A stretch of DNA of 64,000 bases. Origin: Actinomadura luteofluorescens. GTDB taxonomy: Bacteria; Actinomycetota; Actinomycetes; Streptosporangiales; Streptosporangiaceae. Location of the stretch: assembly GCF_013409365.1 (NCBI RefSeq), contig NZ_JACCBA010000001.1, forward strand, positions 6,324,001 through 6,388,000, in the 5' to 3' direction. A program made the translations under genes and the position numbers. Under the pieces are notes generated by a model. The model had not been told where the DNA came from. It was given only the letters and a program-made list of their open reading frames with translations, and made no database searches. Below, piece by piece: positions 21,564 through 54,559 of the stretch (position 1 is its first letter; the number at the start of each line of letters is the position of its first letter).

Positions 21564-22058
21564 TCAGCGGTGCCGGACGGCGCCCGGGAAGTGGGAGGCG
21601 AGCAGGTCGGGCGACTCCTCTCGGCCGTCGAGGACGCGGTTGGTGCGGGTCACGGCCCGCCAGCCGGACGGGGTGCGGCGCAGCCGCCAGTGGTTGGCGG
21701 TGGCGCGGCGCAGCACGAAGCCGTCCGGCCGCTTGACGATCATGAGGGTGTAGCCGACGGCGGTGGCCTCGTCGCCGGCGACCGCGACGTGCGGCGGGCC
21801 GACGACGTGCGCGCAGCCGCCGGAGATCCACCGCTGGTGGTTCGCCGACCGGACCATCCCCTCGATCTCCGGGTGCCCGGTCATCATCAGCTCGTCCACG
21901 TCGTAGACGCCGTCCGGCTCCCAGAGCCCGGCGACCTCGGCCGCGCAGCCGCCGTCGACCAGCGGCCCGTAGGACAGGATCAGCCGGGTGATCTCGCGCT
22001 CGTCCTCCAGGGCGCGCAGCCGCTCCTCGAGGGCGGCCAGGCGGGCTTCGACGCTCAC
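21564..22058 (-). CDS. SnoaL-like (NTF2-fold) protein, copy 1
   Basis: A 164-residue SnoaL_4-type protein. After a charged helical lead (VSVEARLAALEERLRALEDE), EITRLILSYGPLVDGGCAAE and VAGLWEPDGVYDVDE give the typical cone-shaped NTF2 entry. ANHWRLRRTPSGWRAVTRTN is the last strand pair. Such proteins are small hydratases, isomerases or dehydratases in polyketide, steroid and aromatic pathways. It starts at a GTG overlapping the LLM stop (GTGA). The same LLM-SnoaL pair recurs at 33310-34658, so the two products probably act in sequence on one intermediate. Confidence 0.82.
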   Translation of the reverse strand: MSVEARLAALEERLRALEDEREITRLILSYGPLVDGGCAAEVAGLWEPDGVYDVDELMMTGHPEIEGMVRSANHQRWISGGCAHVVGPPHVAVAGDEATAVGYTLMIVKRPDGFVLRRATANHWRLRRTPSGWRAVTRTNRVLDGREESPDLLASHFPGAVRHR

Positions 22059-22927
22059 GCCTCCTCCCCGAACACCAGGCCGTAGTCGGCGGCCAGCCCG
22101 CGCAGGGCGGCGAGCTGTTCGCAGTAGTGCCGCGCCGACTCCGACTCCATCCGGACGCCGGCGATCGTGGCGCCCGCCTCGCGCAGCCGGGCCAGCGCCG
22201 TCCCGGCCGCCTCCGGCGCGCCGATCGGGTCGAGCGGGCGCGACGGCGCGAGGACCACGTCGAAGCCGGGCGGCACGTCGGCGTCCGCGAGCATCTCCGC
22301 GAGCGTGCGCAGCGGCAGGCCGAACGGGACCCAGCCGTCGGCGTCCAGCGCGCGGCGCAGCGAGCGGCCGGAGCGGCCGCCGATCCACAGCGGGACGCGC
22401 TCCTGGACGGCGTGCGGCTCCACGACCAGCCCGGAGTAGGAGTAGTGCTCGCCGCGGTACTCCGGCGTCCGCCGCGACAGGGACGCGCGGAGCGCGGCCA
22501 GCGCGTCGTCGGCGCGGGCGCCGCGGCCGGCGAACGGGGCGCCGAGCAGGCCGAACTCCTCCTCCAGGCTGCCGACGCCGAGGCCGAGCACGAGCCGCCC
22601 GCCGCTGACCTGGTCGAGCGTGCCGTACCGCTTGGCGATGGCGAGCGGGTGGTGGTAGCCGAGGACGAGCACCTGCGTGGCGAGCCGGATCCGGGACGTG
22701 CGGGCGGCGAGGTGGCCGAAGGTGGCGAGCGGGTCCCAGTAGACGCCGCCGCGCTGCTCGGCCGCCTCGGCCGGGACGGCGACGTGCTCGCTGCACGTCA
22801 CGTGGTGGTAGCCGAGCCGGTCGGCGGTCCCGGCGACCAGGGCGATCTCCTCGATGCCCGCGCCGCGCTCCCAGCCGGCATGGCCGGGCGGCTGCGCCAC
22901 CACCGGCGTGACGATCCCGACACGCAT
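22055..22927 (-). CDS. LLM-class, probably F420-dependent oxidoreductase, copy 1
   Basis: A 290-residue luciferase-like TIM barrel. YHHVTCSEHVAVP and QVLVLGYHHPLAIAKRYGTL followed by DQVSGGRLVLGLGVG are signatures of the F420-dependent class. In actinobacterial steroid regulons such enzymes occur, but their substrates are mostly unassigned. It heads a two-gene unit with SnoaL copy 1. Upstream lies AACGTTCTA, a motif shared with two other promoters of this cluster. Confidence 0.82.
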   Translation of the reverse strand: MRVGIVTPVVAQPPGHAGWERGAGIEEIALVAGTADRLGYHHVTCSEHVAVPAEAAEQRGGVYWDPLATFGHLAARTSRIRLATQVLVLGYHHPLAIAKRYGTLDQVSGGRLVLGLGVGSLEEEFGLLGAPFAGRGARADDALAALRASLSRRTPEYRGEHYSYSGLVVEPHAVQERVPLWIGGRSGRSLRRALDADGWVPFGLPLRTLAEMLADADVPPGFDVVLAPSRPLDPIGAPEAAGTALARLREAGATIAGVRMESESARHYCEQLAALRGLAADYGLVFGEEA

Positions 22928-23106: not shown

Positions 23107-24087
23107 ATGACCGAGGCCACGATGCCGGAGGCAGCGACGCCGGAGGCCATGACCGCGCCGGAGGCCGGGAGCGGGGCGGGGGTCATGGCGCGGCGGGAGG
23201 TCATGTCGACCGCGCGCCGGGAGTCGCCGCCGTCGATGATCGAGCGGATGACGCTGATCCTCGACGCGTTCAACGGGCCCACCGCCCGGCTGACCCTGGA
23301 GGACGTCGCCCGCCGCACCCGGCTGCCGCGCTCCACCGCGCACCGCATCCTCGACCAGCTCGTCCGGCAGCGCTGGCTCGCGCACCACTCGTTCGGCTAT
23401 GGGCTCGGCCAGCGCGCCCTCGGCCTCGGCGGGCAGGACGGCGGGCACGGCAAGATCCGTGAGGCCGCCGCGCCGCTGCTGCACGAGCTGCAGGTCACCA
23501 CCGGGCTCGTCGCGCACCTGGCCGTCCTGGACGGCGCCGACATCTTCTACCTGGACAAGCTCGGCGGGCGGCTCGCCACCTCCGTCCCGTCGCGGGTCGG
23601 CGGCCGCGCCCCGGCGCACTGCACCGCGCTCGGCAAGGCGATGCTGGCGTGGCTGGAGCCCGAGCAGGTGGACGCGCTGCTCGGCTCGGGCATCAGCCGC
23701 TTCACCAGCCGCACGATCGGCGAGCTCGGCACCCTCCACCAGGAGCTGCACCGCATCCGGCAGCGCCGCGGCCTGGCCTTCGAGCGCGGCGAGTCCTACC
23801 CCGGCATCGCCTGCGTCGCCGCGGCGATCCGCGGCGCGGAGGGGCCCGTCGCCGGGATCTCCCTGGTCGGCGACATCCGCGCGCCGCTGGAGAACGTCGC
23901 GCCGCTGGTCGTCACCGCCGCCCGCGAGGCCTCGCAGATCCTCTTCCCCGGCTCGGCCCCCGGGTCCCGCGCGGGACGCCCCGGCGGGCGCACCCGGCGC
24001 GCCGTCCGGACCGGCGAGGAGACCAGCTGGTCGCCGGAGACGATGAACCGGCTGCTCGCGGTCGACGGGCGCGGCGACTGGATGTGA
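23107..24087 (+). CDS. IclR-family transcriptional regulator
   Basis: A 326-residue protein. After a variable Ala/Met-rich N-terminus of about 40 residues comes the winged helix-turn-helix (LTLEDVARRTRLPRSTAHRI), then the GAF-like IclR effector domain with CTALGKAMLAWL and GESYPGIACVAAAI. A long Arg-rich tail ends in EETMNRLL-like residues. IclR proteins often control aromatic and steroid catabolism. Sitting at the edge of the cluster and next to hsaB, it is a prime candidate for its local regulator. Several Met codons near the start leave the exact N-terminus open. Confidence 0.88.
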   Translation: MTEATMPEAATPEAMTAPEAGSGAGVMARREVMSTARRESPPSMIERMTLILDAFNGPTARLTLEDVARRTRLPRSTAHRILDQLVRQRWLAHHSFGYGLGQRALGLGGQDGGHGKIREAAAPLLHELQVTTGLVAHLAVLDGADIFYLDKLGGRLATSVPSRVGGRAPAHCTALGKAMLAWLEPEQVDALLGSGISRFTSRTIGELGTLHQELHRIRQRRGLAFERGESYPGIACVAAAIRGAEGPVAGISLVGDIRAPLENVAPLVVTAAREASQILFPGSAPGSRAGRPGGRTRRAVRTGEETSWSPETMNRLLAVDGRGDWM

Positions 24088-24124: not shown

Positions 24125-24739
24125 TCAGCCCCAGCCCCACCGGTCGCCGATGCCCCACGGGTCGGGCGCGATCGGCGCGTCGGGCTCCCCGACGCCGAAC
24201 CGGCTGCGGAAGAACACCATCGGGCGCCGCCACGCGCCGTCCACCACCTCGTGCCGGTCCACCGCCAGGACCCGCCCGATCACCACCTCGTGGTCGCCGG
24301 CCTCGTGCACGTCGTGCACGACGCAGTGGACCGCGAGCAGGACGTCAGGCAGGGCGGGGGCGCCCCACCGCGACTCCTCCCAGTCCAGCCCCTCGAACTT
24401 GGTGCCCCGGCTCGACCCGAACCGCTCGCACAGGTCGCGCTGCTCCTCGCCGAGCACGTTCACGCAGAACCGCCCCGCGGAGCGGATCCGGGGCCACGAC
24501 CGGCCGCGCCTGTCCGCGCAGAACAGGATCAGAGGCGGGTCCAGCGACACCGACGCGAACGACTGGCAGGCGAAGCCGACCGGCTCGCCGCCGTCGAGGG
24601 CGGTGACGACCGTGACGCCCGTCGCGAACTCCGCCATGGCCTTGCGGAAGTCCGCCGGTTCCGGCGCGGCCGCGGCGTCCGCCCGCGAGTCGTTCGCGAC
24701 GGCGTCGTGCAGGGGCGTGAGCGCTGGCTCGGCTGGCAT
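24125..24739 (-). CDS. hsaB: flavin reductase component of 3-HSA hydroxylase (HsaB-like)
   Basis: A 204-residue flavin reductase of the HpaC/HsaB type. FATGVTVVTALDGGEPVGFA then CQSFASVSLDPPLILFC is the flavin site, and SAGRFCVNVLGEEQ and GDHEVVIGRV follow. In steroid catabolism HsaB uses NADH to supply reduced flavin to HsaA, which hydroxylates 3-HSA (the opened A-ring phenol). It is the only such reductase in the window, while two HsaA-like oxygenases are present. A 30-residue N-terminal lead is extra. It is divergent from the hsaD-kstD-kshB-hsaA-like operon. Confidence 0.82.
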   Translation of the reverse strand: MPAEPALTPLHDAVANDSRADAAAAPEPADFRKAMAEFATGVTVVTALDGGEPVGFACQSFASVSLDPPLILFCADRRGRSWPRIRSAGRFCVNVLGEEQRDLCERFGSSRGTKFEGLDWEESRWGAPALPDVLLAVHCVVHDVHEAGDHEVVIGRVLAVDRHEVVDGAWRRPMVFFRSRFGVGEPDAPIAPDPWGIGDRWGWG

Positions 24740-24807: not shown

Positions 24808-25023
24808 CTCACCCGGCACCGGTCAAGGGGCGGCCGGTGAGCCCGAAGGTAGGCACGCCCCCGCGCGGCCACGCGCCCCGATCCCGATGAGTGGAAGCGG
24901 CCGCCGGGACGGGCCCGCCGGGCCGCCCCGGGACCCGCGTCCCGCTGATCGGGATCCACCGCCTGACCACGCCGTCCCGCCGATTACGTTCCGGACAAGC
25001 CACCGTCGAAGGACTGGGAGATC

Positions 25024-25893
25024 ATGCCTGCGGAGCTGACCTACGAGTCGACGTTGCGCGAGCTCGCCACCGACCAGGGCGTCCTGCGCTACCACGAGGC
25101 CGGCGAGGGCCCGCCGCTGCTGCTGCTGCACGGCTCCGGTCCCGGCGTCACCGGCTGGCGCAACTACCGCGGCAACCTCGCCCGGTTCGCCGAGCACTTC
25201 CGCTGCCTGGTCCTGGAGTTCCCCGGCTTCGGGGTCAGCGACCCCACCGACGAGCACCCGATGATGGCCGCCGGCGGAGCCGTCGTGCGGTTCCTGGACG
25301 GCCTCGGCCTCGACCAGGTCGACGTCATCGGCAACTCCATGGGCGGCATCGTCGCGACGCAGGTGGCACTGCGGCATCCCGAGCGCGTCCGGCGGCTGGT
25401 CACCATCGGCGGGATCGGGCGCAACGTCTTCAGCCCCGCGCCCGGCGAGGGGATCAGGCTGCTGGCGGAGTTCACCGACGACCCGACCCGCGAGGGCCTC
25501 GTCCGGTGGCTGAACTCGATGGTGTACGACCCGCGGATCGTCACCGAGGAGATGATCGAGGAGCGCTGGAAGCAGGCCACCGACCCGGGCACCCTCGCCA
25601 GCGCGCGCCGCATGTACGGGTCGAAGGCGATGGCGGCCCGCGCGAAGGCGATGGCGGCCTCCGACGAGCCGCCCTACTGGGCGATGCTCCACAGGCTCAA
25701 GGCCGAGACGCTGATCACCTGGGGCCGGGACGACCGGGTCAGCCCCGTCGACATGATGCTCGTGCCGATGCGCACGATCCCGAACGTCCAGGTGAACATC
25801 TTCCCGAACTGCGGGCACTGGGTGATGATCGAGCAGAAGTCCGCCTGGGAGAGCGCCGTGCTGGCGTTCCTGACCCGGAAGGACGAGCGGTGA
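25024..25893 (+). CDS. hsaD: meta-cleavage product hydrolase (HsaD-like alpha/beta hydrolase)
   Basis: A 289-residue alpha/beta hydrolase. The oxyanion loop is LLHGSGPGVTGW, the nucleophile elbow GNSMGG (Ser105), the acid Asp in GRDDRVSPVDM (236/237) and the base His in NCGHWV (265). This layout and the NMVYDP-type lid are those of C-C bond hydrolases acting on extradiol ring-cleavage products; HsaD hydrolyses the DSHA product of HsaC. An HsaC-like enzyme is encoded at 30909. It opens an operon with 4-base overlaps into the next two genes. Other esterase activities cannot be excluded by sequence. Confidence 0.78.
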   Translation: MPAELTYESTLRELATDQGVLRYHEAGEGPPLLLLHGSGPGVTGWRNYRGNLARFAEHFRCLVLEFPGFGVSDPTDEHPMMAAGGAVVRFLDGLGLDQVDVIGNSMGGIVATQVALRHPERVRRLVTIGGIGRNVFSPAPGEGIRLLAEFTDDPTREGLVRWLNSMVYDPRIVTEEMIEERWKQATDPGTLASARRMYGSKAMAARAKAMAASDEPPYWAMLHRLKAETLITWGRDDRVSPVDMMLVPMRTIPNVQVNIFPNCGHWVMIEQKSAWESAVLAFLTRKDER

Positions 25894-27608
25894 GCGACCA
25901 GGCGGCGAACGGCCGGGAGCGAGCGGGCGGCTGGGACCACGAGTACGACCTCGTCATCGTCGGCAGCGGCGGCGGCGGGATGGCCGCGGCGCTGGCCGCG
26001 CACGACGAGGGGCTCTCCACGCTGATCGTGGAGAAGGGCAAGAAGTTCGGCGGCTCCACCGCGATCTCCGGCGGCGGCATCTGGATCCCCAACAACCCGA
26101 CGCTGAAGGCGCGCGGCCACGACGACAGCCGCGAGTCGATCCGCCGCTACCTGGACCGGCTCACCGAGGGGCGCGTCCCCGCGGCGCGGCTGGACGCGTT
26201 CGTCGACAACGGGCCCGCCGCCATGGAGCTGCTCTGCCGCAGCAGGTGGATGCAGTTCTTCTGGACGAAGGGCTACGCCGACTACCACCCCGAGTACGAG
26301 GGCGGGCGCCCGCTCGGCCGGTCCATCGAGGCCAAGCCGTTCGACACCCGCAAGCTCGGCGACGACGAGCGGTTCCAGCGGCCGAACAGCATGAAGGGCC
26401 CGCTCGGCCTGTGGATCACCGCGAAGGACTACCACGACCTCGCGATGGCCAAGCGCACCTGGACGGGCCGGCGCGCGTCGCTGGTCGCGGCGTGGCGCGT
26501 GTCGTCCAACATGGTCCGCCGCCGCCACATGGCGACCGGCGGCCGGGCGCTCGCCGCGCGGATGCGGATGGCGCTGAAGGACGCCGGGATCCCGCTCTGG
26601 CTGAAGACCCCCATGACCGAGCTCGTCGTCGAGGACGGCCGCGTCACCGGCGTCGTCGTCCGGCGCGACGGCGAGGCGCTGCGCGTCCGCGGGCGCCGGG
26701 GCGTCCTGCTCGCGACGGGCGGCTTCGACCACAACCAGGAGATGCGCGACGCCTACCTGCCGAAGGGCGGCCAGGAGGACTTCGCGATGGGCGCCCGCGA
26801 GAACACCGGCGACGGCATCCGCGCCGGTGAGAGCGTCGGCGCGGCGCTGGACCTGATGGACGACGCCTGGTGGATGCCCGCCGTCCGGCACCCGGCCGGG
26901 GCGACGATCCCGCTGCTGTCGGAGCGCTGCATCCCGCGGTCGGTGATCGTGGGCCAGGACGGCAAGCGGTTCACCAACGAGTCGGCCCCGTACGTCAACT
27001 TCGTCCACGACCAGCTGGAGGGCGGGCACGTCCCCTGCTGGTTCGTGATGGACGCCAAGGCCCGGGCCCGCTACCCGTTCGCGCAGATCCTGCCGGGCGC
27101 GCCGATCCCGAAGGCGTTCTACGAGGCGGGCATCGCGTTCAAGGCGGACACGCTCGCCGAGCTGGCCGGCAAGATCGGCGTCCCGGCGGACGCGCTCGGC
27201 GAGACCGTCGAGACGTTCAACCGGTACGCGCGCGACGGCAAGGACCCCGAGTTCGGCCGCGGCGACTCCGCCTACGACCGCTACTACGGCGACCCGAACC
27301 TGAAGAACCCGAACCTGGACGAGATCGAGGGCGGGCCGTACCACGCGTTCCGGATGGAGGTCGGCGACCTCGGCACCAAGGGCGGCCTCGTCTCCGACGA
27401 GCACGCCCGCGTCCTGCGCGGGGACGGGACGGTCATCGAGGGCCTGTACGTGACGGGCAACTCCTCGGCGTCGGTGATGGGCAACGAGTACGCGGGCCCG
27501 GGCGCCACGATCGGCCCGGCGATCGTGTTCGGCTACATCGCCGCCCGGCACGCCGCCGGGCGGGCCGGCACCGGGGGGTCCGCCGGGAAGGCCGCGGGAC
27601 GCTCATGA
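25890..27608 (+). CDS. kstD: 3-ketosteroid delta1-dehydrogenase family flavoprotein (KstD, copy 1)
   Basis: A 572-residue FAD protein of the usual KstD length. The FAD-binding motif is YDLVIVGSGGGGMAAALAAH (about 19-38). The C-terminal GLYVTGNSSASVMG, with NEYAGPGATIG following, keeps the Tyr-x-x-x-Gly that binds and activates the C3 ketone in characterised KstDs. The enzyme would introduce the C1-C2 double bond, which together with 9-alpha-hydroxylation opens ring B. GTG start overlapping the hsaD stop (GTGA). Of the three KstD-family proteins here, this has the most canonical signature. Confidence 0.82.
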   Translation: MSDQAANGRERAGGWDHEYDLVIVGSGGGGMAAALAAHDEGLSTLIVEKGKKFGGSTAISGGGIWIPNNPTLKARGHDDSRESIRRYLDRLTEGRVPAARLDAFVDNGPAAMELLCRSRWMQFFWTKGYADYHPEYEGGRPLGRSIEAKPFDTRKLGDDERFQRPNSMKGPLGLWITAKDYHDLAMAKRTWTGRRASLVAAWRVSSNMVRRRHMATGGRALAARMRMALKDAGIPLWLKTPMTELVVEDGRVTGVVVRRDGEALRVRGRRGVLLATGGFDHNQEMRDAYLPKGGQEDFAMGARENTGDGIRAGESVGAALDLMDDAWWMPAVRHPAGATIPLLSERCIPRSVIVGQDGKRFTNESAPYVNFVHDQLEGGHVPCWFVMDAKARARYPFAQILPGAPIPKAFYEAGIAFKADTLAELAGKIGVPADALGETVETFNRYARDGKDPEFGRGDSAYDRYYGDPNLKNPNLDEIEGGPYHAFRMEVGDLGTKGGLVSDEHARVLRGDGTVIEGLYVTGNSSASVMGNEYAGPGATIGPAIVFGYIAARHAAGRAGTGGSAGKAAGRS

Positions 27609-28630
27609 CGGCACTGAAGGCGCGGGTGGTGGAGGTCGTCCGGGAGACGGCCGACGCGCACTCCCTCGTCCTCGAACCCGTCGAGGGCGGCCGGGAGCGG
27701 TTCGCCTACCGGCCCGGGCAGTTCCTCACCGTCCGGGTCCCGGCCGAGGGCGGCTGGGCCGCGCGCTGCTACTCGCTGTGCAGCTCGCCGCTCACCGACG
27801 ACCGGCCGAAGGTGACGGTCAAGCGGGTCGCGGGCGGGGTCGGATCCAACTGGATCTGCGACAACGTCACGGCGGGCGACGTCCTGGAGGTGCTGCGCCC
27901 GGCGGGCACGTTCACCCCGCCCTCGCTCGACGAGGACCTGCTGCTCGTCGCGGGCGGCAGCGGCATCACCCCGGTCATGTCGATCCTCAAGTCGTGCCTG
28001 GCGGGCGGCTCCGCGAAGGTGGCGCTGCTGTACGCCAACCGGGACGAGCGGTCCGTGATCTTCGCCGACGAGCTGAGGGAGCTGACCGAGCGGCACCCGG
28101 ACCGGCTCACCGTCGTCCACCTGCTGGAGTCGGTGCAGGGCCTGCCGACGGCCGCCGCCGTCCGGTCGCTGGCGGGCCCCTACGCGGGGCGTCCCGCGTA
28201 CGTGTGCGGGCCCGAGATCTTCATGGACCTGGTCTCCGGGACGCTCACCGGCCTCGGCGCGAAGGTGCACGCCGAGCGGTTCTTCTCGCTGGAGGGCGAT
28301 CCGTTCGAGGAGCCCGAGGCCGCCCCGGACGAGGCGGAGGCGGAGAACGGCGACGCCGGCGAGATCGAGGTCGAGCTGGACGGCGAGACCCGCACGGTCG
28401 CCTGGCGCAGGTCCGAGCGGCTCCTCGACGCGCTGCTGCGCGCCGGGGTCGACGCGCCGTTCTCCTGCCGGGAGGGTTCCTGCTCGGCGTGCGCCTGCGT
28501 GGCGCTGGAGGGCGAGGTCACCCTGGACGCCAACACGGTCCTCGACGAGCAGGATCTCGCCGACGGCCTCATCCTCGCCTGTCAGGCGAGGCCGGTCACC
28601 GACCGGCTGAAGATCACCTACGACGGCTGA
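27605..28630 (+). CDS. kshB: 3-ketosteroid 9-alpha-hydroxylase reductase (KshB-like)
   Basis: A 341-residue three-domain reductase. The FAD domain has RCYSLCSSP; the NAD domain has LLVAGGSGITPVMSILKS and YVCGPEIFMD; a C-terminal plant-type [2Fe-2S] ferredoxin domain has CREGSCSACAC and a distal CQAR. An acidic linker (EEPEAAPDEAEAENGDAGE) joins them. KshB passes electrons from NADH to the Rieske oxygenase KshA, encoded at 38987. PaaE- or HmpX-type reductases share the layout, so the assignment leans on context. The ATG overlaps the kstD stop. Confidence 0.78.
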   Translation: MTALKARVVEVVRETADAHSLVLEPVEGGRERFAYRPGQFLTVRVPAEGGWAARCYSLCSSPLTDDRPKVTVKRVAGGVGSNWICDNVTAGDVLEVLRPAGTFTPPSLDEDLLLVAGGSGITPVMSILKSCLAGGSAKVALLYANRDERSVIFADELRELTERHPDRLTVVHLLESVQGLPTAAAVRSLAGPYAGRPAYVCGPEIFMDLVSGTLTGLGAKVHAERFFSLEGDPFEEPEAAPDEAEAENGDAGEIEVELDGETRTVAWRRSERLLDALLRAGVDAPFSCREGSCSACACVALEGEVTLDANTVLDEQDLADGLILACQARPVTDRLKITYDG

Positions 28631-28652: not shown

Positions 28653-29837
28653 ATGGCTGACCGCGTGCTTGACACGATCATGGAGAGGGCGGAGCAGATC
28701 CGCGAGCTCGGCCCGGCCAACGAGGCGCTCGGCCGGCTCGACGACGAGGCGGCGAAGATCCTCAAGGACTCGGGCGCGATCCGGCTGCTCCAGCCGGAGG
28801 CGCACGGCGGCCTGGAGGTCCACCCCCGCGAGTTCGCCGAGACTGTGATGGGGATCGCCTCCCTGGACGGCTCCACCGGCTGGGTCGCCGGCATCGTCGG
28901 TGTCCACCCGTGGGAGATGGCCTACGCCGACCCGAAGGTGCGCGAGGAGATCTGGGGCGAGGACCCCGACACCTGGATCGCCTCCCCGTACGCGCCGATG
29001 GGCATCGCCCGGCCGGTGGACGGCGGCTACGTCTTCAACGGCCGCTGGCAGTTCTCCTCCGGCACCGACCACTGCGACTGGATCTTCCTCGGCGCGATGC
29101 TGGGCGACGACGAGGGCAAGATGGCGCAGCCGCCGCGGTCGCTGCACATGATCCTGCCGCGCTCGGACTACGAGATCGTCGAGGACTCCTGGGACGTCGC
29201 CGGGCTCAAGGGCACCGGAAGCAAGGACATCATCGTCAGGGACGCGTTCGTCCCGGCGTACCGGACGCTGGAGTACTCCAAGGTCGTGGACGGTTCGGCG
29301 CCGCGCGAGGCGGGGCTGACCAACCCGTCCTACCTGATGCCGTTCTCCTGCGTGTTCCCGCTCGGCATCTCCTCCGCCGTGATCGGCATCGCCGAGGGCG
29401 CCCTGCACCACCACCTGGCCTACCAGCGCAACCGCGTCCAGATCACCGGCACGAAGATCAAGGACGACCCGTACGTGCTGTACGCGATCAGCGAGGCGGC
29501 CGAGGAGATCAAGACGTCCCGCACGGCGCTGCTCGACAACTGCTCGCGCATGTACGACATGGTCGCCGCGGGGCACGTGCCGACGTTCGCCGAGCGCGCC
29601 GCCGGGCGCCGCACCCAGGTCCGCGCGGCGTGGCGGGCGGTGCAGGCGATGAACGAGATCGTCGTGCGGTCCGGCGGCAACGCGATGCGCAGCGACAACC
29701 CGATCCAGCGGTTCTGGCGGGACGCGCACGTCGGCCTCGCCCACGCCATCCACGTCCCGGGCTCGGTCTACCACGTCTCCGCCCTGACGGACCTGGACAT
29801 CGAGCCGCCGCAGGGCCCGATGCGGTCGATGATCTGA
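28653..29837 (+). CDS. HsaA-like flavin-dependent monooxygenase (acyl-CoA dehydrogenase fold), copy 1
   Basis: A 394-residue group D flavin monooxygenase. GSTGWVAGIVGVHPWEMAY and IASPYAPMGIARPVDGGYVF lead into GRWQFSSGTDH; QRFWRDAHVGLAHAIHVPG is near the C-terminus. These match HsaA, which hydroxylates the phenolic A-ring of 3-HSA using HsaB-supplied FMNH2. The C-terminus (IEPPQGPMRSMI) differs from the EFGL...NLV-type end of classical HsaA, which the paralogue at 40288 keeps. It follows kshB by 22 bases in the same operon. It may act on a differently substituted phenol. Confidence 0.75.
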   Translation: MADRVLDTIMERAEQIRELGPANEALGRLDDEAAKILKDSGAIRLLQPEAHGGLEVHPREFAETVMGIASLDGSTGWVAGIVGVHPWEMAYADPKVREEIWGEDPDTWIASPYAPMGIARPVDGGYVFNGRWQFSSGTDHCDWIFLGAMLGDDEGKMAQPPRSLHMILPRSDYEIVEDSWDVAGLKGTGSKDIIVRDAFVPAYRTLEYSKVVDGSAPREAGLTNPSYLMPFSCVFPLGISSAVIGIAEGALHHHLAYQRNRVQITGTKIKDDPYVLYAISEAAEEIKTSRTALLDNCSRMYDMVAAGHVPTFAERAAGRRTQVRAAWRAVQAMNEIVVRSGGNAMRSDNPIQRFWRDAHVGLAHAIHVPGSVYHVSALTDLDIEPPQGPMRSMI

Positions 29838-34197: not shown

Positions 34198-34658
34198 CGC
34201 TCGAAGCCGCCGGCCGGCTCGCGCTCGGCGACCTCGTCGCCCGGTACGCGCTGCACGCCGACCGCCGCGAGATCGACGCCATGGCGGGCCTGTTCGCGCC
34301 GGACGCGGTCCTCGTCCTGCCCGACGCCCCCGGCGAGCTCGACCCCGTGCGGACCTTCACCGGGCGCGCCGAGATCGCCGCGACCCTGGGGGCGCTGCAC
34401 GGCGTCCCGGTCACCTTCCACGCCCTCGCCGGGGAGGTGTTCGACGCGGGACCCGAGCCCGGCACCGCCACCGGCGAGATCGCCTGCGTCGCCCACCATC
34501 TGAGCGACCGCGAGGACGGCGCCGCCCGGGACCTGGTGTGGCACTGCCGCTACACCGACGCCTACCGGCTGGACGGCGGGACGTGGCGGTTCGCGCGGCG
34601 CGAGCAGCGGATCGACTCCATCGAGACCCGGCCCGTCCGGAGGCGGCGCCGTGGCTGA
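34194..34658 (+). CDS. SnoaL-like (NTF2-fold) protein, copy 2
   Basis: A 154-residue SnoaL_4-like protein. LGDLVARYALHADRREIDAM followed by AGLFAPDAVLVLPD is the entry helix/strand; VWHCRYTDAYRLDGGTWRFA ends the cone. An Arg-rich tail closes it. It overlaps the LLM stop by four bases and the next SDR start by eight. Paired with LLM copy 2; see 21564 for the parallel unit. Confidence 0.8.
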   Translation: MTLEAAGRLALGDLVARYALHADRREIDAMAGLFAPDAVLVLPDAPGELDPVRTFTGRAEIAATLGALHGVPVTFHALAGEVFDAGPEPGTATGEIACVAHHLSDREDGAARDLVWHCRYTDAYRLDGGTWRFARREQRIDSIETRPVRRRRRG

Positions 34659-45395: not shown

Positions 45396-45486
45396 GTGAC
45401 ATGCCCTCCGACCTCGGGTTCCCGGCGCGGGCACACCGTAGAGCGCGGTCCGGGCGCGCAGGGGCCGCCCGTCCCACTGACCGGTA

Positions 45487-46210: not shown

Positions 46211-46257
46211 TCGGGACCGTTCCGGCGGCGTCCCGCCGCCGCGGCTAGCGTGCCGCC

Positions 46258-47018: not shown

Positions 47019-47795
47019 ATGGCACGCACCATCGCCGTCAGCGGGACGGCGTCCGGCATCGGGAAGACGCTCGCCGGGCTGCTACGGGAGCAGGGCGACA
47101 CGGTCATCGGGGTCGACCTGCGCGACGCCGACGTGTGCGCCGACCTCGGCGGCGCCGAGGGACGGTCGCGGGCGGTCGCGCAGGTCCTGGACCTGTGCGG
47201 CGGCACCCTGGACGCCGCCGTCGCCTGCGCCGGGGTCAGCGACTTCACCGAGCTGCCCGTCAAGGTCAACTACTTCGGCGTCGTCGCGCTGATGGAGGGC
47301 CTGCGTCCCGCGCTGGCCCGGGCGGAGGCCCCGCGCGCCGCCGTCGTCGGGTCGATCGCGGGCACGCACCCCGCGGACGACGAGATCGTCCGGGACTGCC
47401 TGGCCGGGGACGAGCCCGCCGCGCTGGAGGCGGCGGCGAAGGCCGTCGCGGCGGGCGCGGGCAGCAGGACCTACCCGTCGTCGAAGGCGGCGCTGGCCCG
47501 GTGGATGCGCCGGGCGTGCGTCACCCCGGAGTGGGCGGGCGAGGGCATCCCGCTCAACGCGGTCGCGCCGGGCGTCGTCAAGACCCCGATGAGCGCGCCG
47601 CTGTTCGAGGACGAGGCGATGCTCAAGGTGATGAACGAGGCCGTCCCGATGCCGCTGAACGGCTACGCCGGGCCCGAGGTGATCGCGGAGGCGCTGCGCT
47701 GGCTGATCTCCCCGGCCAACACCCACATGACCGGCCAGGTCGTCTACGTGGACGGCGGTGCCGAAGCGACCCTGCGCGGCCCGGACACGTTCTGA
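47019..47795 (+). CDS. 3-alpha-hydroxysteroid dehydrogenase/carbonyl reductase-like SDR
   Basis: A 258-residue SDR with the unusual architecture of Comamonas HsdA. It has ISGxATGIG-like AVSGTASGIGKTLAGLLREQ, VIGVDLRDADVCADLGGAEG followed by RS (an acidic NAD-selecting strand), VKVNYFGVVALMEGL, and YPSSKAALARWMRR as active site. The end MTGQVVYVDGGAEATLRGPD is the family tail. HsdA-type enzymes interconvert 3-alpha-hydroxy- and 3-ketosteroids, as needed for entry of bile acids or reduced steroids. This supports a steroid as the cluster's substrate. Confidence 0.78.
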   Translation: MARTIAVSGTASGIGKTLAGLLREQGDTVIGVDLRDADVCADLGGAEGRSRAVAQVLDLCGGTLDAAVACAGVSDFTELPVKVNYFGVVALMEGLRPALARAEAPRAAVVGSIAGTHPADDEIVRDCLAGDEPAALEAAAKAVAAGAGSRTYPSSKAALARWMRRACVTPEWAGEGIPLNAVAPGVVKTPMSAPLFEDEAMLKVMNEAVPMPLNGYAGPEVIAEALRWLISPANTHMTGQVVYVDGGAEATLRGPDTF

Positions 47796-47854: not shown

Positions 47855-48775
47855 TCAGTGCTTGCTGGTGCCCGTGTCGTCGAGCGCGGCGACGCTGTAG
47901 GCGGCGTAGGTCCGGTGCGGCTCGCGGCCCTCGAAGTACGGGGTGACCTGCTCGCCGAGCTCCTCGACGGAGAAGACGCCGTCCGCCGCGGTGAACTTGT
48001 GCTCCACGGTCGGCGCGGCCATCAGCGCGACCATGTCGCCGTAGACGACGAACACCTGCCCGCTGATCTTTTCCGCCGTCGGGGACGCGAGGTAGCCGAC
48101 GAACGTCCCGACCCGCTCGGGAGCCATGGAGTCCAGCCCGCCGGGGGAGGTGCCCTCCGCGAACGTCGCCTCGGTCATCGCCGTCCGGGCGCGGGGGCAG
48201 ATCGCGTTGGCGCGCACCCCGTACCGGCCGAGGCCCGCCGCCGTCGACAGCGTCAGCGCGACGATGCCGGCCTTGGCCGCCGAGTAGTTCGGCTGGCCCG
48301 CCGACCCGAACAGGAACGCCTCGGACGCGGTGTTGACCACCCGTCCGTAGACCGGGCCGCCCGCGGCCTTGCTGGCGGCCCGCCAGTGCACGGCGGCGGC
48401 CCGCGACACCGACGCGTGGCCCTTCAGGTGGACGTGCATGACGTCGTCCCAGTCCGACTCCGACAGGTTGAACAGCATCTTGTCGCGCAGCACGCCCGCG
48501 TTGTTGACCAGGACGTCCAGGGAGCCGAACGTGTCGACGGCGGCCGACACCAGCGTGTCGCCCATCGACCAGTCGCCGACGTCGCCGGTCACGGCGACGG
48601 CCTGCCCGCCCGCCTGCTTGATCTCGGCGACGACCTCCTCGGCGGCCGGGCCCATGTCGTTGACGACGACGTTGGCGCCCCGCGCGGCCAGGGCGAGGGC
48701 CTCGCAGCGGCCCAGCCCGGCGCCCGCGCCGGTGACGACGGCGGTGCGGCCCGCCAGGGACAGGTCAGCGTTCAT
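47855..48775 (-). CDS. 17-beta-HSD4-like short-chain dehydrogenase
   Basis: A 306-residue SDR of the peroxisomal multifunctional-enzyme type. VVTGAGAGLGRCEALALAAR and VVVNDMG are diagnostic of the 17-beta-HSD4 branch, with NNAGVLRDKMLFNLSESDWD and NYSAAKAGIVALTLSTA following. A C-terminal extension of about 60 residues is present. In mycobacteria, relatives (Hsd4A and neighbours) oxidise 3-hydroxyacyl-CoA side chains and 17-beta-hydroxysteroids. GGAGG lies 5 bases before the ATG. Divergent from the FadD19-like gene, sharing the operator region 48816-48933. Confidence 0.82.
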   Translation of the reverse strand: MNADLSLAGRTAVVTGAGAGLGRCEALALAARGANVVVNDMGPAAEEVVAEIKQAGGQAVAVTGDVGDWSMGDTLVSAAVDTFGSLDVLVNNAGVLRDKMLFNLSESDWDDVMHVHLKGHASVSRAAAVHWRAASKAAGGPVYGRVVNTASEAFLFGSAGQPNYSAAKAGIVALTLSTAAGLGRYGVRANAICPRARTAMTEATFAEGTSPGGLDSMAPERVGTFVGYLASPTAEKISGQVFVVYGDMVALMAAPTVEHKFTAADGVFSVEELGEQVTPYFEGREPHRTYAAYSVAALDDTGTSKH

Positions 48776-48815: not shown

Positions 48816-48933
48816 TAGTACGTATTCTAGTTCCGCGGCCGGTGGCGTCCCGCTGAGCGGGTCGGCACCGGCCGTTCGACCGGCGCGGACCGCTGAGTGG
48901 GACACCCGTTGCCCGCGAATGAGAATGAATTCT
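48816..48933. promoter_or_regulatory. divergent promoter region with two copies of an ATTCTAGT-type site
   Basis: AGTACGTATTCTAGT near 48817 and AGAATGAATTCTAGT at 48922 share ATTCTAGT and a matching left arm; the second contains a perfect AGAAT-GA-ATTCT inverted repeat. On the minus strand the first includes TAGAAT, a good -10 for the SDR. On the plus strand TAGTCT (48933-48938) is a -10 lying 6 bases before the ATG at 48945, where no ribosome site is seen, so the CoA-ligase mRNA may be leaderless. Confidence 0.55.
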
Positions 48934-48944: not shown

Positions 48945-50537
48945 ATGACGCTGAACCTGGCGACCCTCTTCGAGGCGGTGGCCGCGGCCGTGCCCGGCCG
49001 CCTCGCCCTCGTCTGCGGCGACCGTAGGGCGACCTTCGCCGAACTGGACCGGCGGGCGGACGCCGCGGCGCACCGGCTCCGCGTCGCGGGCATCGCGCCC
49101 GGGGAGCACGTCGGCGTCCACATGCTGAACAGCGCCGAGTACGTCGAGACGCTGCTCGGCTGCCTGAAGGCCCGCGCCGTCCCGGTCAACGTCAACTACC
49201 GGTACACCGACCGCGAACTGCGCCACATCTACACCGACGCCGAACTCGCGGGCCTGGTCGTGGACGCGGAGTTCGCCCCCGCCGCCGCCCGCGTGGCCGG
49301 CGACTGCCGCGCGCTCCGCCACGTGGCGGTCGTCGGGACGGACGGTGAAGCCCCGGCATGGCCGCCCCAGGTCGACGTCACCGTCTACGACGCCGACGGG
49401 ACCGAGCCCGACCCGTCCCTCCGGGAAGGCCGCAGCGCCGACGACCGCTACATCCTCTACACGGGCGGGACCACCGGGCTGCCCAAGGGCGTCGTCTGGC
49501 GCCACGAGGACTTCTACATGGCCGCCGTGAAGGGCGGGAACCCGTACGGCGACCCGCACCTCACCGCCGAGTCCCTCGCCGCCGCCGCGCGGGACGGGTT
49601 CGCGCTCAGCTACATGCTCACGATGCCGCTGATGCACGGCGCCGCGACCTACACGCTGCTGATGTCGCTGTTCACCGGCTCCACCACGGTCCTGATGCGC
49701 CGCTTCGACCCGGTCGAGGCGCTCGACCTGATCGAGCGCGAGCGGCCCGTGATCGTCACGGTGGTCGGGGACGCGATCGCCCGCCCGCTCGCCGACGCGA
49801 TCCGCGCGCACGGCGCCGGCCGCGACCTGTCCTCGTTCAAGGTGCTCGGATCCGGCGGCGCGATCCTGTCGCGCAGCGTCCAGGAGGAGTTCGCCGAGCT
49901 GATCCCCGGCCTGCACGTCAGCAACGGCTTCGGCGCCTCCGAGTCCGGTGTGGACGGCAACATCAGCGTGGGCGAGGACGGCCTGATGCGGCTCGCCGCC
50001 GGCCCGCGCGTCACCGTCGTCGACACGGACATGAGGCCGGTCCCGCCCGGTTCCGGGGAGATCGGGCACGTCGCCCGCTCCGGCCACGTCCCGCTCGGCT
50101 ACCACAACGACCCCGTGAAGACCGCCCGGACGTTCCCCGTCATCGGCGGGACGCGCTGGTCGATCCTCGGCGACATGGCCCGCGTCGAGGCCGACGGCAC
50201 CATCGTCGTCCTCGGGCGCGGCTCCGGCTGCGTCAACACCGGCGGCGAGAAGGTCTTCCCCGAAGAGGTCGAGCAGGCCCTGAAGTCGCACCCGGCCGTG
50301 ATGGATGCCCTGGTCGCCGGCGTCCCCGACGACCGCTTCGGCGAGCGCGTCGCCGCCGTCGTCGAACTGCGCCCCGGCACGACCGCCGCGGCCGAGGACC
50401 TGCGCGCCCACTGCCGCGCCCACCTGGCGGGGTACAAGATCCCCGCCCTCGTCACCTTCACCCCGATCGTCCGCTCCCCGAGCGGCAAGGCCGACTACCG
50501 CTGGGCCAAACGCGTCCTCACCGAGCCCACGGCCTGA
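48945..50537 (+). CDS. steroid acyl-CoA synthetase, FadD19-like
   Basis: A 530-residue adenylate-forming ligase. YILYTGGTTGLPKGVVWRHE is the P-loop in the GVxWRHED form typical of FadD19/FadD3. MPLMHGAATYTLLMSLFTGS, GFGASESGVDG and VNTGGEKVFPEEVEQALKSH follow, and the C-terminal lysine is in RSPSGKADYRWAK. In mycobacteria FadD19 activates long-chain sterol side-chain acids and FadD3 the HIP propionate; length and motifs favour the FadD19 side. The ATG lacks a ribosome site and probably begins a leaderless mRNA. It leads the thiolase-dehydrogenase-thioesterase genes. Confidence 0.8.
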   Translation: MTLNLATLFEAVAAAVPGRLALVCGDRRATFAELDRRADAAAHRLRVAGIAPGEHVGVHMLNSAEYVETLLGCLKARAVPVNVNYRYTDRELRHIYTDAELAGLVVDAEFAPAAARVAGDCRALRHVAVVGTDGEAPAWPPQVDVTVYDADGTEPDPSLREGRSADDRYILYTGGTTGLPKGVVWRHEDFYMAAVKGGNPYGDPHLTAESLAAAARDGFALSYMLTMPLMHGAATYTLLMSLFTGSTTVLMRRFDPVEALDLIERERPVIVTVVGDAIARPLADAIRAHGAGRDLSSFKVLGSGGAILSRSVQEEFAELIPGLHVSNGFGASESGVDGNISVGEDGLMRLAAGPRVTVVDTDMRPVPPGSGEIGHVARSGHVPLGYHNDPVKTARTFPVIGGTRWSILGDMARVEADGTIVVLGRGSGCVNTGGEKVFPEEVEQALKSHPAVMDALVAGVPDDRFGERVAAVVELRPGTTAAAEDLRAHCRAHLAGYKIPALVTFTPIVRSPSGKADYRWAKRVLTEPTA

Positions 50538-50572: not shown

Positions 50573-51766
<1,194 letters not shown>

Positions 51767-51773
51767 GGAGCAC

Positions 51774-53951
51774 ATGACCATCGGGCTGACCGAGGAGCAC
51801 CGCGACCTGCGCGACGCCGTGCGCGCGTTCACCTCCCGGCAGGTGACGCCCGCGGCCGTCCGCGCCGCCGTGGACGCCAGCCGGGAGAAGGCGCCCGCGT
51901 TCTGGGACGACCTCGCCGCGCAGGGCCTGCTCGGCCTGCACCTCCCCGAGGACGCCGGCGGCGCGGGCTACGGTCTGGTCGAGCTGGCCGTCGTCCTGGA
52001 GGAGCTGGGGCGCGCCGTCACCCCTGGACCGTTCCTTCCGGCGGTGCTGGCGAGCGCCGTGCTGCACCGGGCGGGGCACACCGAGCACCTGCCGTCCCTC
52101 GCCGACGGGAGCGCGGTCGGCGCCGTGGGGCTGGACGCGGGAAGCCTGACGATCTCCCGCTCGGGCGGTGGGATCACGGTGACCGGCACGTCGGGGCCCG
52201 TCCTCGGCGCCCCCCTGGCCGACGTGCTCGTCCTTCCGGTGAAGGACGGCGACGCGACGGCCTGGATCGTGCTGCCCCGGGACGCCGTGAGGGTGGACGA
52301 ACTGCCCAGCCACGACCTGACCCGGCGGCTGGCCCGGGTCGGGCTGGAGAACCGGGCCGTCCCGGGCCGTTCGGTCCTGGACCTGGACCCGCGGGCCGTG
52401 CCCGACCTCGCGGCGGTGCTCTTCGCCGCCGAGGCCTCCGGCCTGGCCGACTGGGCGACGGCGACGGCCGCCGAGTACGCCAAGGTCCGCGAGCAGTTCG
52501 GCCGTCCCATCGGGCAGTTCCAGGGGGTCAAGCACCGCTGCGCCCGGATGCTCGCGCACGCCGAGCAGGCCCGCGCCTGCGCCTGGGACGCCGCCCGCGC
52601 CCACGACGAAGGCGCGGCGCGGGAGGCGTCGCTGGCGGCGGCGGTCGCCGGGGCCACCAGCGTCCAGGCCGCGTTCCAGACCGCGAAGGACTGCGTGCAG
52701 ACCCTCGGCGGCATCGGCTTCACCTGGGAGCACGACGCGAGCCTCTACCTGCGCCGCGCCCAGACCCTCCGCGTCCTGCTCGGCTCCACCGCGTCCTGGC
52801 GCCGCCGCGTCGCCCGCCTCACCCTCGACGGCGTCCGCCGCGAACTGCGCGTCGAACTCCCCCCGGAGGCCGAGCGCATCCGCGTCGAGGTCCGCGCCGA
52901 GCTGGAGCCCGCGAAGGCCCTGGACGGCAAGGAGCGCCTCGGCTACCTCGCCGACCGCGGCTACACCTCGCCGCACCTGCCCGAACCGTGGGGCAAGGGC
53001 GCCGACGCCGTGTCCCAGCTCGTCATCGCCGAGGAGATGCGCGCCGCCGGCCTGCGCGCCCACGACATGATCATCGGCAACTGGGTGGTGCCGACGCTGA
53101 TCGCGCACGGTTCGGCCGCCCAGCACGAGCGGTTCCTGCCCGCCTCGCTGCGCGGCGACATCCGCTGGTGCCAGCTGTTCTCCGAGCCCGGGGCGGGCTC
53201 CGACCTCGCCGCCCTCGCCACCCGGGCGGAGAGGACCGAGGGCGGCTGGAAGATCACCGGGCAGAAGGTGTGGACGTCCATGGCCCGCGAGGCCGACTGG
53301 GGCATCCTGCTCGCGCGCACCGACCCGTCCGTCCCGAAGCACAGGGGCCTGTCGTACTTCCTGCTCGACATGAGGTCGCCCGGCATCGACATCCGGCCGC
53401 TGCGCGAGCTGACCGGCGACACCCTGTTCAACGAGGTGTTCCTGGACGGCGTCTTCATCCCCGACGACCTCCTCGTCGCCGCGCCGGGCGACGGCTGGAA
53501 GCTCGCCCGCACCACCCTGGCGAACGAGCGGGTCTCGCTCTCGAACGACTCGTCCCTGGGCAGCGGCGGCGAGGCCCTCCTCAAACTGGCGACGGACGCG
53601 GACGACGAGCGCCTGACCACGCTCGGCGGCATCCTCTGCGACGCGCAGTCGAGCAGCCTGTTCGGCCTGCGCACGACGCTGCGCTCCCTCGCGGGCGGCC
53701 AGCCCGGCGCCGAGTCCAGCATCGGCAAGCTGATCGGCGTCGAGCACATCCAGCAGGTGTGGGAGACGGCCGTCGACTGGATCGGCCCGGAGGCCCTCAC
53801 CGGCGAGGGGCGCGGCGGGATGGACGACCCGACCTGGATGTTCCTGAACTCCCGCAACATGTCGATCGCGGGCGGCACCACCGACGTCCAGCTGAACATC
53901 ATCGGGGAGCGCCTCCTCGGCCTCCCGCGCGACCCGCAGGCGGCGTCGTGA
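51774..53951 (+). CDS. fused double acyl-CoA dehydrogenase, FadE34-like
   Basis: A 725-residue protein holding two acyl-CoA dehydrogenase units in one chain. Unit 1 (about 1-345) has LPEDAGGAGYGLVELAVVLE and the C-terminal EQFGRPIGQFQGVKHRCARM then CVQTLGGIGFTWEHD. Unit 2 (about 370-725) has LFSEPGAGSDLAALATRAER, GQKVWTSMAREADWGILLAR and SRNMSIAGGTTDVQLNIIGE. Fusion of the two halves of a heteromeric steroid dehydrogenase is the hallmark of FadE34/ChsE3, which desaturates C24 (3-oxochol-4-en-24-oyl-type) and bile-acid CoAs. Ends in a GTGA overlap with the thioesterase. Confidence 0.85.
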   Translation: MTIGLTEEHRDLRDAVRAFTSRQVTPAAVRAAVDASREKAPAFWDDLAAQGLLGLHLPEDAGGAGYGLVELAVVLEELGRAVTPGPFLPAVLASAVLHRAGHTEHLPSLADGSAVGAVGLDAGSLTISRSGGGITVTGTSGPVLGAPLADVLVLPVKDGDATAWIVLPRDAVRVDELPSHDLTRRLARVGLENRAVPGRSVLDLDPRAVPDLAAVLFAAEASGLADWATATAAEYAKVREQFGRPIGQFQGVKHRCARMLAHAEQARACAWDAARAHDEGAAREASLAAAVAGATSVQAAFQTAKDCVQTLGGIGFTWEHDASLYLRRAQTLRVLLGSTASWRRRVARLTLDGVRRELRVELPPEAERIRVEVRAELEPAKALDGKERLGYLADRGYTSPHLPEPWGKGADAVSQLVIAEEMRAAGLRAHDMIIGNWVVPTLIAHGSAAQHERFLPASLRGDIRWCQLFSEPGAGSDLAALATRAERTEGGWKITGQKVWTSMAREADWGILLARTDPSVPKHRGLSYFLLDMRSPGIDIRPLRELTGDTLFNEVFLDGVFIPDDLLVAAPGDGWKLARTTLANERVSLSNDSSLGSGGEALLKLATDADDERLTTLGGILCDAQSSSLFGLRTTLRSLAGGQPGAESSIGKLIGVEHIQQVWETAVDWIGPEALTGEGRGGMDDPTWMFLNSRNMSIAGGTTDVQLNIIGERLLGLPRDPQAAS

Positions 53952-54559
53952 CCCTGGACCTGCAGGCCGAGCACCAGGCGACCGGCGTGGACGCGGCGGC
54001 AGCGGCGGCCCGCCGCGTCGTCGACGCGCTGGTCCGCTCCGGGGACCTCTCGGGCGCCGACATGTCCGAGGTGGCCGACCGCCTGAACGCCGTGGCCGAC
54101 GACCTGGAGGCGGCGGCCCCACCGTTGCGCGACCGCCTGGTCGACATGTGGCGCGGCGACGGCAACACCCGCCACGACCCGGTCACCGGCCCCGAGAACC
54201 CGATCGCCCCGCCGCTCGAATACACCGCCGCGGACTCCCGCACCATCGAGGCCACCGCGACGCTGGGCCTGCCCTACCAGGGCCCGCCGTCCAGCGTCCA
54301 CGGCGGGATCTCGGCCCTCCTCCTGGACCACACCTTGGGCGTGGCGAACGGGTGGGCGGGCAAGTCGGGCATGACGGCGGAACTGACCCTGCGCTACCAC
54401 CGCCTGACGCCCCTCTTCGAGCCCCTGACGATCAGCGCCCGCCAGGTCTCCGTGGACGGCCGCAGGATCCGCACTGTTGGAGCGATCCAGGCCGGTGGCG
54501 AGGACTGCGTGACCGCCGAGGGCCTCTTCATCGCCAAGTACCCGCCCCGCCCCCGCTGA
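53948..54559 (+). CDS. hotdog-fold thioesterase (PaaI/acyl-CoA thioesterase type)
   Basis: A 203-residue protein. Residues 1-75 are helical and variable. The hotdog domain follows, with NPIAPPLEYTAADSRTIEAT, YQGPPSSVHGGISALLLDHT (the HGG-x-x-x-x-x-D/H active loop) and RYHRLTPLFEPLTISARQVS. It probably hydrolyses an acyl-CoA of the side-chain pathway, for recycling CoA or overflow. The GTG start overlaps the FadE34-like stop. Convergent with the GNAT gene, only three bases apart. Confidence 0.82.
   Translation: MTLDLQAEHQATGVDAAAAAARRVVDALVRSGDLSGADMSEVADRLNAVADDLEAAAPPLRDRLVDMWRGDGNTRHDPVTGPENPIAPPLEYTAADSRTIEATATLGLPYQGPPSSVHGGISALLLDHTLGVANGWAGKSGMTAELTLRYHRLTPLFEPLTISARQVSVDGRRIRTVGAIQAGGEDCVTAEGLFIAKYPPRPR

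Follow-up and report, generated by a model that had tools for sequence, protein, structure and literature searches.

A stretch of 64,000 nucleotides of the Actinomadura luteofluorescens chromosome (the window, bases 6324001-6388000 of a 9.62-Mb single-contig genome) carries, at window positions 21564-54559, a block of 31 genes, called by codon usage, in which KstD, KshA/B, and HsaA-D stand together with a set of side-chain genes (KstD, KshB, and HsaB-D at the family level, below the cut-offs of the models bearing these names). A preliminary description of this steroid-type block, made from the sequence alone, had named the genes of the ring A/B and side-chain set, and these names were confirmed at the family level by NCBIfam and PDB comparisons; the seven short-chain dehydrogenases/reductases (SDRs) and three KstD-family flavoproteins that it listed are indeed present. 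The NCBIfam scan covered 30 of the 31 genes (all except 41597-42559) and the Pfam scan 10 proteins, 8 of them in the block; scores are given below with the cut-off of the model.

KshA, the oxygenase of 3-ketosteroid 9-alpha-hydroxylase (KSH), is encoded at 38987-40144 on the minus strand, and its PDB matches at E ≤ 1e-20 are solved KSH oxygenases only (4QDF_B, 618 bits; 4QDC, 513 bits; 2ZYL, 482 bits). Its closest named relative is found in Actinomadura sp. WMMA1423 (95%), followed by further Actinomadura (84-89%), in a list that may omit the genome's own and near records. Divergent from kshA lies hsaA of the canonical type (40288-41454, plus strand; NF045629 625.5, cut-off 450; nearest PDB entry 2RFQ, 433 bits). 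A second HsaA-like flavin monooxygenase (28653-29837, plus; 375.6 with the same model; best PDB match 2OR0, 576 bits) is a divergent and distinct paralogue. When we compared the best 80 of at least 587 confirmed kshA loci, each reaching at most 10 kb per side, so that gene-presence counts are lower bounds, both HsaA proteins were present in at least 14 and at least one of them in at least 49 of the 80 (≥50% identity).

The remaining ring A/B genes start with a divergent pair, an HsaB-like flavin reductase (24125-24739, minus; NF045630 193.8, cut-off 230) and an HsaD-like hydrolase (25024-25893, plus; NF045632 264.9, cut-off 400). Downstream of the latter on the plus strand are a KstD-like flavoprotein (25890-27608), a KshB-type FAD/[2Fe-2S] reductase called at the family level (27605-28630; TIGR02160 251.6, cut-off 420.8), an HsaC-like extradiol dioxygenase (30909-31820; NF045631 316.2, cut-off 450; BphC 355, cut-off 366; best PDB match 2ZI8), and a KstD-superfamily FAD dehydrogenase (31841-33313; NF005510 635.8, cut-off 481); a second KstD-family flavoprotein is encoded at 43875-45395 on the minus strand (NF009474 487, cut-off 675). 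The first flavoprotein exceeds the cut-off of NF009473 (PRK12835; 903.4, cut-off 837), a subfamily titled just "FAD-binding protein", and reaches 682.5 with NF005882 (PRK07843), the 3-oxosteroid 1-dehydrogenase model (cut-off 788). None of the three passes the cut-off of any model named ketosteroid dehydrogenase.

Side-chain genes lie at the right end of the block. An SDR (47855-48775, minus) scored just above the cut-off of NF005862, a 3-oxoacyl-ACP reductase model (414.7 against 414); it presumably resembles Hsd4A and may act as a 3-hydroxyacyl-CoA dehydrogenase. Divergent from it, the side-chain operon on the plus strand begins with an acyl-CoA ligase (48945-50537; PRK07798 643.2, cut-off 543; CasG model 194, cut-off 750), which we take to be of the FadD19 type. 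It continues with a steroid 3-ketoacyl-CoA thiolase of the FadA5/CasB type (50606-51766; NF005889 662.2, cut-off 515), of which a second genomic copy lies at 2.389 Mb, and with a 725-aa acyl-CoA dehydrogenase (51774-53951), for which the predicted role is CasC-like. The preliminary description had called this gene a fused FadE34-like one, and the protein does contain two Pfam ACAD halves (IpdE2-like at 8-345, 171 with cut-off 450; pimC-like at 353-590, 179 with cut-off 624). The last gene (53948-54559, plus) encodes a protein with domain PF20859 (RHA1_ro05818_N; 80.1, cut-off 27) and a weak hotdog thioesterase-like match (4HBT 20.0, cut-off 20.6). Further upstream, a CasI/FadD17-like acyl-CoA synthetase (35484-37100, plus; NF052587 606.4, cut-off 900; FadD17 538, cut-off 850) is a paralogue of the true CasI found downstream.

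This true CasI, identified by a CasI model search of 345 genomes of the class, matched at chromosome positions 6402286-6403977, about 24 kb beyond the end of the block. The cluster is in fact severed by the window edge, and its second half, from casG to casP, occupies 6392702-6408825. The first gene, casG (steroid-24-oyl-CoA synthetase; 6392702-6394309), lies 14.1 kb beyond the block and scores 889.2 (cut-off 750), and casI (steroid-22-oyl-CoA synthetase; 6402274-6403983) scores 994.4 (cut-off 900). The preliminary description had proposed that the cluster is devoted to a steroid that is bile-acid-like or otherwise carboxylated at C24, and these two genes, both above their cut-offs, support this proposal. 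Directly before casI is a CasH-like gene of the old yellow enzyme (OYE) family (6401043-6402290; PF00724 and a BaiCD-like match of 189, cut-off 825; no CasH model was among its matches), and the half also holds an SDR, a branched-chain-type ABC transporter, two acyl-CoA dehydrogenases, and a MaoC protein. In R. jostii RHA1, cholate metabolites are transported by the ABC transporter camABCD (PMC8399759; this and the other papers on known systems are cited from extracts). The CasL-P-like set for a C3 side chain is present, with two ACADs, ChsH2 domains (dehydratase, zinc ribbon, and OB in one protein), MaoC, and an Ltp2-type aldolase (706, cut-off 469). The sole PDB match of this aldolase (CasP) at E ≤ 1e-60 is 6OK1 (789 bits), and it retains Tyr294 (YDHF) and Tyr344; in Thermomonospora curvata Ltp2 (6OK1), the Tyr of YDHF and Tyr344 are catalytic (PMC12329534). 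A fadD3 gene follows at 6415624, 6.8 kb past casP (708, cut-off 657).

The two halves are joined in relatives. In a complete genome of the same genus (G364) the order is unbroken, from the homologue of 20744-21544 through that of 53948-54559 to casG...casP, with 113 bp between the matches of 53948-54559 and casG. The interval between the halves is 14.1 kb here, 14.9 kb in G346, and 5.3 kb in G368, and there is none in G364. In two genomes of the same family (G299 and G087) and one of the same class (G303), the last window gene is about 4 kb or less from casG, followed by casI; casL to casP come after casI in the first two, and casL and casN alone were matched in G303. In three other genomes with a strong CasI match (G031, G107, and G290), the set was seen in part only, within the fetched stretches. 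Across the genus, a kshA orthologue (≥84%) occurs in 17 of 35 genomes and casI (E ≤ 1e-180) in 16 of 35: casI is found in 16 of the 17 genomes with kshA, on the same contig in 11 of these 16, and in none of the 18 others. The exception (G369) is a draft assembly with 620 contigs and 93% completeness. Among the 80 kshA loci, all from named genomes, at least six cluster genes (≥50% identity) occur in 41, and a cas gene (≥55%) lies within the short flanks in 12. Variation was also found: in WMMA1423 (G384), no thiolase of the cluster type matched at E ≤ 1e-120, only the second genomic one, and at its locus homologues of 57676 and 58020 adjoin the homologue of the 47855 SDR.

The preliminary description had reported HsaEFG, IpdAB, and ChsH/Ltp2 as not seen and had proposed that the block borrows a lower pathway. 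All of these do lie outside the window, and genes like them exist elsewhere on the chromosome; the borrowing holds for HsaEGF and the ipd-type genes and fails for ChsH/Ltp2, which sits about 27-30 kb past the block end (17-21 kb beyond the window) and is part of the same cluster in relatives. An HsaEGF-like run lies at 350983-353686 (0.35 Mb). Its hydratase-like gene reaches 273 with its best model (cut-off 409), its middle gene was named HsaG by position and by eye, and the single 4-hydroxy-2-oxovalerate aldolase above cut-off in the genome is at 352673, with five weaker sub-cut-off matches elsewhere. The HsaF aldolase has as best PDB match, among four at E ≤ 1e-80, entry 4LRS, which we take to be a T. 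curvata structure. The C/D-ring, ipd-type genes are separate from the cluster, fadD3 being the exception, and are found at 8.643-8.672 Mb: CoA-transferase pairs (8666776-8668217), a FabK-like gene (IpdC-type by position; 225, cut-off 453), and matches to PRK07938 (411, cut-off 260), PRK07801 (717, cut-off 591), and PRK07831 (460, cut-off 336), presumably of the EchA20, FadA6, and IpdF types, respectively.

We also searched the genome for a second, canonical locus. No second strong KshA or HsaC match was found in it (next E-values 2.4e-5 for KshA and 3.8e-9 for HsaC), and the block therefore does not stand in addition to a usual cholesterol locus. The genome has 24 MlaD matches and four mce operons, at 3.99, 5.45, 6.233, and 6.257 Mb, none of them in the window or beside the block; around these operons we recognized no steroid ring genes by eye from the first 50-60 residues. 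KstR-type sites, searched with TNNAACNNGTTNNA, which we assumed to be the KstR operator consensus, numbered five in the window at ≤1 mismatch (all with one mismatch), against 2.22 expected, and 9 of 100 shuffles reached five. These observations agree with the preliminary description in that the block is not the standard cholesterol cluster. Its report that Mce4 and Cyp125 were not seen stands for Mce4, no mce operon having been assigned as such; for Cyp125, the nearest candidate is a CYP125-like P450 at 2.39 Mb.

The gene set, described at first as unusual, is ordinary for an actinobacterial cholate cluster of known kind; it had seemed unusual because the window cuts it. The R. jostii RHA1 cholate cluster (KstD3, HsaA3-D3, KshA3, KstD3b, and CasB-CasP) has the same enzyme set, compared by gene list, with C/D-ring genes elsewhere (PMC8399759, Table 1), and 53948-54559 bears a domain named after RHA1_ro05818. 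Different from the present genome, RHA1 additionally has a cholesterol cluster, and its HsaE3G3F3 is beside HsaA3 by locus number (PMC8399759). We also observed, in an unannotated record of RHA1 plasmid pRHL1 (946499-987395), a related kshA-hsaA-hsaC-hsaD-hsaGF-casH-like set with 58-71% identity. Thermomonospora curvata, of the same family (Thermomonosporaceae), grows on cholate and, in the extracts of Bergstrand et al. 2016 (PMC4810484), not on cholesterol; its cholate genes are described there in one cluster and its C/D-ring genes in another, with no cholesterol orthologue set. The lower pathway is likewise placed apart here, whereas, compared by description, the cholate cluster here is split by 14.1 kb and hsaEGF is located away from it, at 0.35 Mb; the related G241 has hsaEGF near casP. 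Nocardioides simplex VKM Ac-2033D has a cluster E that, according to the extracts, is induced by lithocholate and not by cholesterol, and two clusters (D and E) beside its cholesterol cluster (PMC7593942), in contrast to one split cluster here and no cholesterol cluster found; in Pimelobacter simplex ATCC 6946 the order is casH-casG-SDR-...-kshA. Clusters 2 and 3 of Saccharopolyspora hirsuta, which also degrades cholesterol, include kshA, two kstD, hsaA3B3C3D3, and casACEHI (PMC8708139), and R. rhodochrous KshA1 is seemingly dedicated to cholate and groups with RHA1 KshA3 (PMC4064121). Among the matches listed in the open-licence literature, no paper names Actinomadura.

Taken together, the block very probably belongs to an actinobacterial 9,10-seco cluster for bile acids (cholate type), of which it makes up the ring-A/B half and part of the side-chain operon, carried by an Actinomadura-type chromosome. 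This cluster is in two pieces, and no other 9,10-seco ring-opening cluster seems to exist in the genome. Gene families, synteny, copy number, and motif placement were observed directly. For substrate, flux, order of steps, and regulation we infer from RHA1, N. simplex, and T. curvata that, after uptake, CasG would convert the C24 acid to its CoA ester, and the fused acyl-CoA dehydrogenase, a hydratase, the 47855 SDR, and the thiolase would remove acetyl-CoA. CasI, CasL/N, CasM/O, and the Ltp2-type CasP would then take off the C3 remnant as propionyl-CoA, so that the side chain would be shortened in one thiolytic and one aldolytic round. The SDRs of the hydroxysteroid dehydrogenase type, the CasH-like OYE, and the KstD-like flavoproteins would produce the 3-keto-1,4-diene. 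Ring B may be opened by KshA/KshB and ring A by HsaA/HsaB and HsaC, the product being split by HsaD, with completion by HsaEGF, FadD3 (6.41 Mb), and the ipd-type genes.

A shared palindrome may connect the two halves. Cluster E of N. simplex carries the palindrome Lcin1, TCCCGGT[C/G]ACCGGGA (PMC7593942), and we scored matches as mismatches to TCCCGGTSACCGGGA. In the block, TCCCGCTGATCGGGA (24940-24954, two mismatches) lies in the hsaB/hsaD divergent promoter, TCCCGGTGGGCGGGA (40207-40221, two mismatches) in that of kshA/hsaA, TCCCACTGACCGGTA (45472-45486, three mismatches) in that of kstD/tetR, and TCCCGCTGAGCGGGT (48848-48862, three mismatches) in that ahead of the side-chain operon. A further site, TCCCGGTGATCGGGA (46202-46216, one mismatch), overlaps the end of the tetR gene directly before an SDR operon (46258-47007, an NCBIfam SDR, and 47019-47795, coniferyl-alcohol dehydrogenase-like, NF009092 112.7, cut-off 242; both plus). 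The window contains 23 palindromes with ≤3 mismatches, many within genes, against 7.35 expected, and none of 100 shuffles reached 23. Between them, the two halves have seven divergent promoters, whose best sites have 1, 2, 2, 3, 3, 4, and 4 mismatches; the best of these is outside the window, between casG and the adjacent SDR gene. The surrounding 344 kb contain 45 further divergent promoters, of which 44 have 4-7 mismatches, and the one with a single mismatch stands before fadD3. A site (≤4 mismatches) was also found upstream of kshA in 62 of the 80 loci, compared with 12 of 80 inside kshA and 12% of mononucleotide shuffles, the loci being related and not independent. The KstR-like TetR regulator (45575-46210, plus; NF033703 120.2, cut-off 280) or the IclR-type, PcaR/PobR-like regulator (23107-24087, plus; TIGR02431 117.5, cut-off 284.75) would be a candidate regulator of both halves through the TCCCGGTSACCGGGA-type palindrome.

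Several observations count against a bile-acid cluster under common control. Two of the seven promoters have four-mismatch sites only, a level that 6 of the 45 others reach as well, and no palindrome (≤3 mismatches) precedes hsaEGF here, unlike in N. simplex. Most Hsa proteins of the window and all three KstD-like proteins fall below steroid-named cut-offs; for HsaB, HsaC, HsaD, the second HsaA, the CasI/FadD17-like ligase, the KstR-like regulator, and the KstD-like proteins, clear matches below cut-off would be expected of paralogues of cholesterol enzymes. No separate C5-side-chain enoyl-CoA hydratase (CasD) was recognized among the scanned genes, and the PRK07798 ligase (48945) is inside the cluster, though bile acids need no C8-chain ligase. 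Finally, a region at 2389467-2397314 (genes k052-k056 of loci L221/L222) contains a second FadA5-type thiolase (648, cut-off 515), with a palindrome, TCCCTCTCACCGGGA (two mismatches), directly upstream, and two tandem P450s. The P450 at about 2.396 Mb is CYP125-like (PDB 8VXI, 538 bits; 3IVY, 381), its nearest PDB entries being named CYP125MRCA.

This last region bears on the alternative that the cluster serves bile acids and sterols in general, with the 48945 ligase and the P450/FadA5 locus at 2.39 Mb serving for the latter. A similar pairing, with a FadA5-type gene ≤4 kb from a P450 with the searched motif, occurs in G241 and G303. On the other hand, the P450 has just 42-47% identity to ten reference P450s in one group with a CYP125 checked against the PDB, the neighbourhood is partly biosynthetic in look (by eye), and T. 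curvata, in the extracts cited above, does not grow on cholesterol. We regard this alternative as rather unlikely, and the 2.39-Mb locus may permit sterol use. Absence of CYP125 is not claimed: the I-helix motif by which CYP125 was sought occurred in none of the 22 readable of 30 P450 loci, and a search with a DNA pattern then found five P450s with the motif in this genome, one of them CYP125-like. Beside mycobacterial kshA, two regular expressions found no P450 within the fetched stretches. As a separate observation, one more CasI/FadD17-like ligase is encoded at chromosome positions 2363715-2368473, together with a pair of acyl-CoA dehydrogenases and a TetR gene that is 33% like the one in the cluster.

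The substrate could also be some other natural steroid, hydroxylated or conjugated, such as an ecdysteroid or a plant steroid, in place of bile acids. The accessory genes would fit this idea: two SnoaL_4 (NTF2-like) proteins (21564-22058, minus, PF13577 91.7 bits; 34194-34658, plus, 75.3), two F420-dependent LLM-class oxidoreductases (22055-22927, minus, TIGR03619 212.6; 33310-34197, plus, 264.2; cut-off 166.9), and the seven SDRs, including, besides those above, 29920-30756 (minus), 34651-35463 (plus), 37181-37969 (minus; NCBIfam), and 37966-38757 (minus; NF005559 218.1, cut-off 215). So would the five block genes without a match in the G364 cluster stretch (29920, 33310, 34194, 34651, and 41597), the last a rubrerythrin-like protein (41597-42559, minus; PF02915 100.7) that, like the neighbouring alpha/beta hydrolase (42721-43878, minus; PF12146 and PF03583), has a signal-like N-terminus by eye. 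Since CasG, CasI, the CasH-like OYE, and the CasL-P-like genes suit a C5-acid side chain, we find this substrate quite improbable. That the block is simply the organism's ordinary cholesterol or phytosterol cluster, rearranged, is very improbable: KshA shares about 70% identity with many KshA copies of actinobacteria, including mycobacteria, a FadA5-type thiolase and the PRK07798 ligase are in the cluster, and the genome has mce operons and a CYP125-like P450, but the mce operons stand apart from the block and from any steroid ring genes recognized by eye, CasG and CasI score above cut-off and are found next to the block in relatives, KstR-type sites are near chance in the window, and T. curvata, with the same layout in the same family, does not grow on cholesterol according to the extracts of PMC4810484.

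The probable bile-acid cluster also includes a small gene behind kshA. It shares 4 bp with the end of kshA and encodes a 78-aa protein with four invariant cysteines (38754-38990, minus). A homologue is found directly downstream of kshA, on the same strand, in 78 of the 80 loci, which span Actinomadura to Mycobacterium, Nocardioides, Streptomyces, and Rhodococcus; L066 and L089 had no match, and the Rhodococcus plasmid loci L133 and L134 each have a homologue that is not directly behind kshA. Alignments of 28 and of 27 sequences show Cys19, Cys22, Cys48, and Cys58 to be invariant, with a T-S-x-Q-W core. The protein matched no Pfam or NCBIfam family; several homologues are named ferredoxin by NCBI, and the cysteine spacing differs from the plant-type ferredoxin pattern. 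Its predicted structure (mean predicted local distance difference test, pLDDT, 76; best PDB match E 1.9) gave no fold match and is uninformative. It could be an overlooked third KSH component, a small metal- or iron-sulphur-binding delivery or assembly partner of KshA, an assignment that we put forward as doubtful.

Outside the genes of the cluster, the last 9.4 kb of the window (54563-64000) form the first part of the 14.1-kb interval between the halves, which runs from 54563 to chromosome position 6392701 and contains two TetR-like genes and a transposase-like gene (61184-62089), as judged by eye. At the other end, three plus-strand genes (10894-14467) look, by eye and from the first residues only, like the small, medium, and large subunits of a molybdenum hydroxylase of the xanthine/CO-dehydrogenase type. 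A tRNA-Val called by ARAGORN (28536-28615, minus), antisense to the end of the KshB-like gene, is probably a false positive, Rfam having no match at the gathering level in the window.

In conclusion, most actinobacteria with the cholate pathway also have the cholesterol pathway, which blurs functional tests. This genome and the 16 of 35 genomes of the same genus with kshA and casI would add many cholate-only cases if they too lack the cholesterol cluster, a lack assessed here in this genome alone, by KshA/HsaC copies and mce positions. The palindrome and the four-cysteine protein linked to kshA raise two questions: which regulator responds to bile acids, and is there a third partner in KSH?

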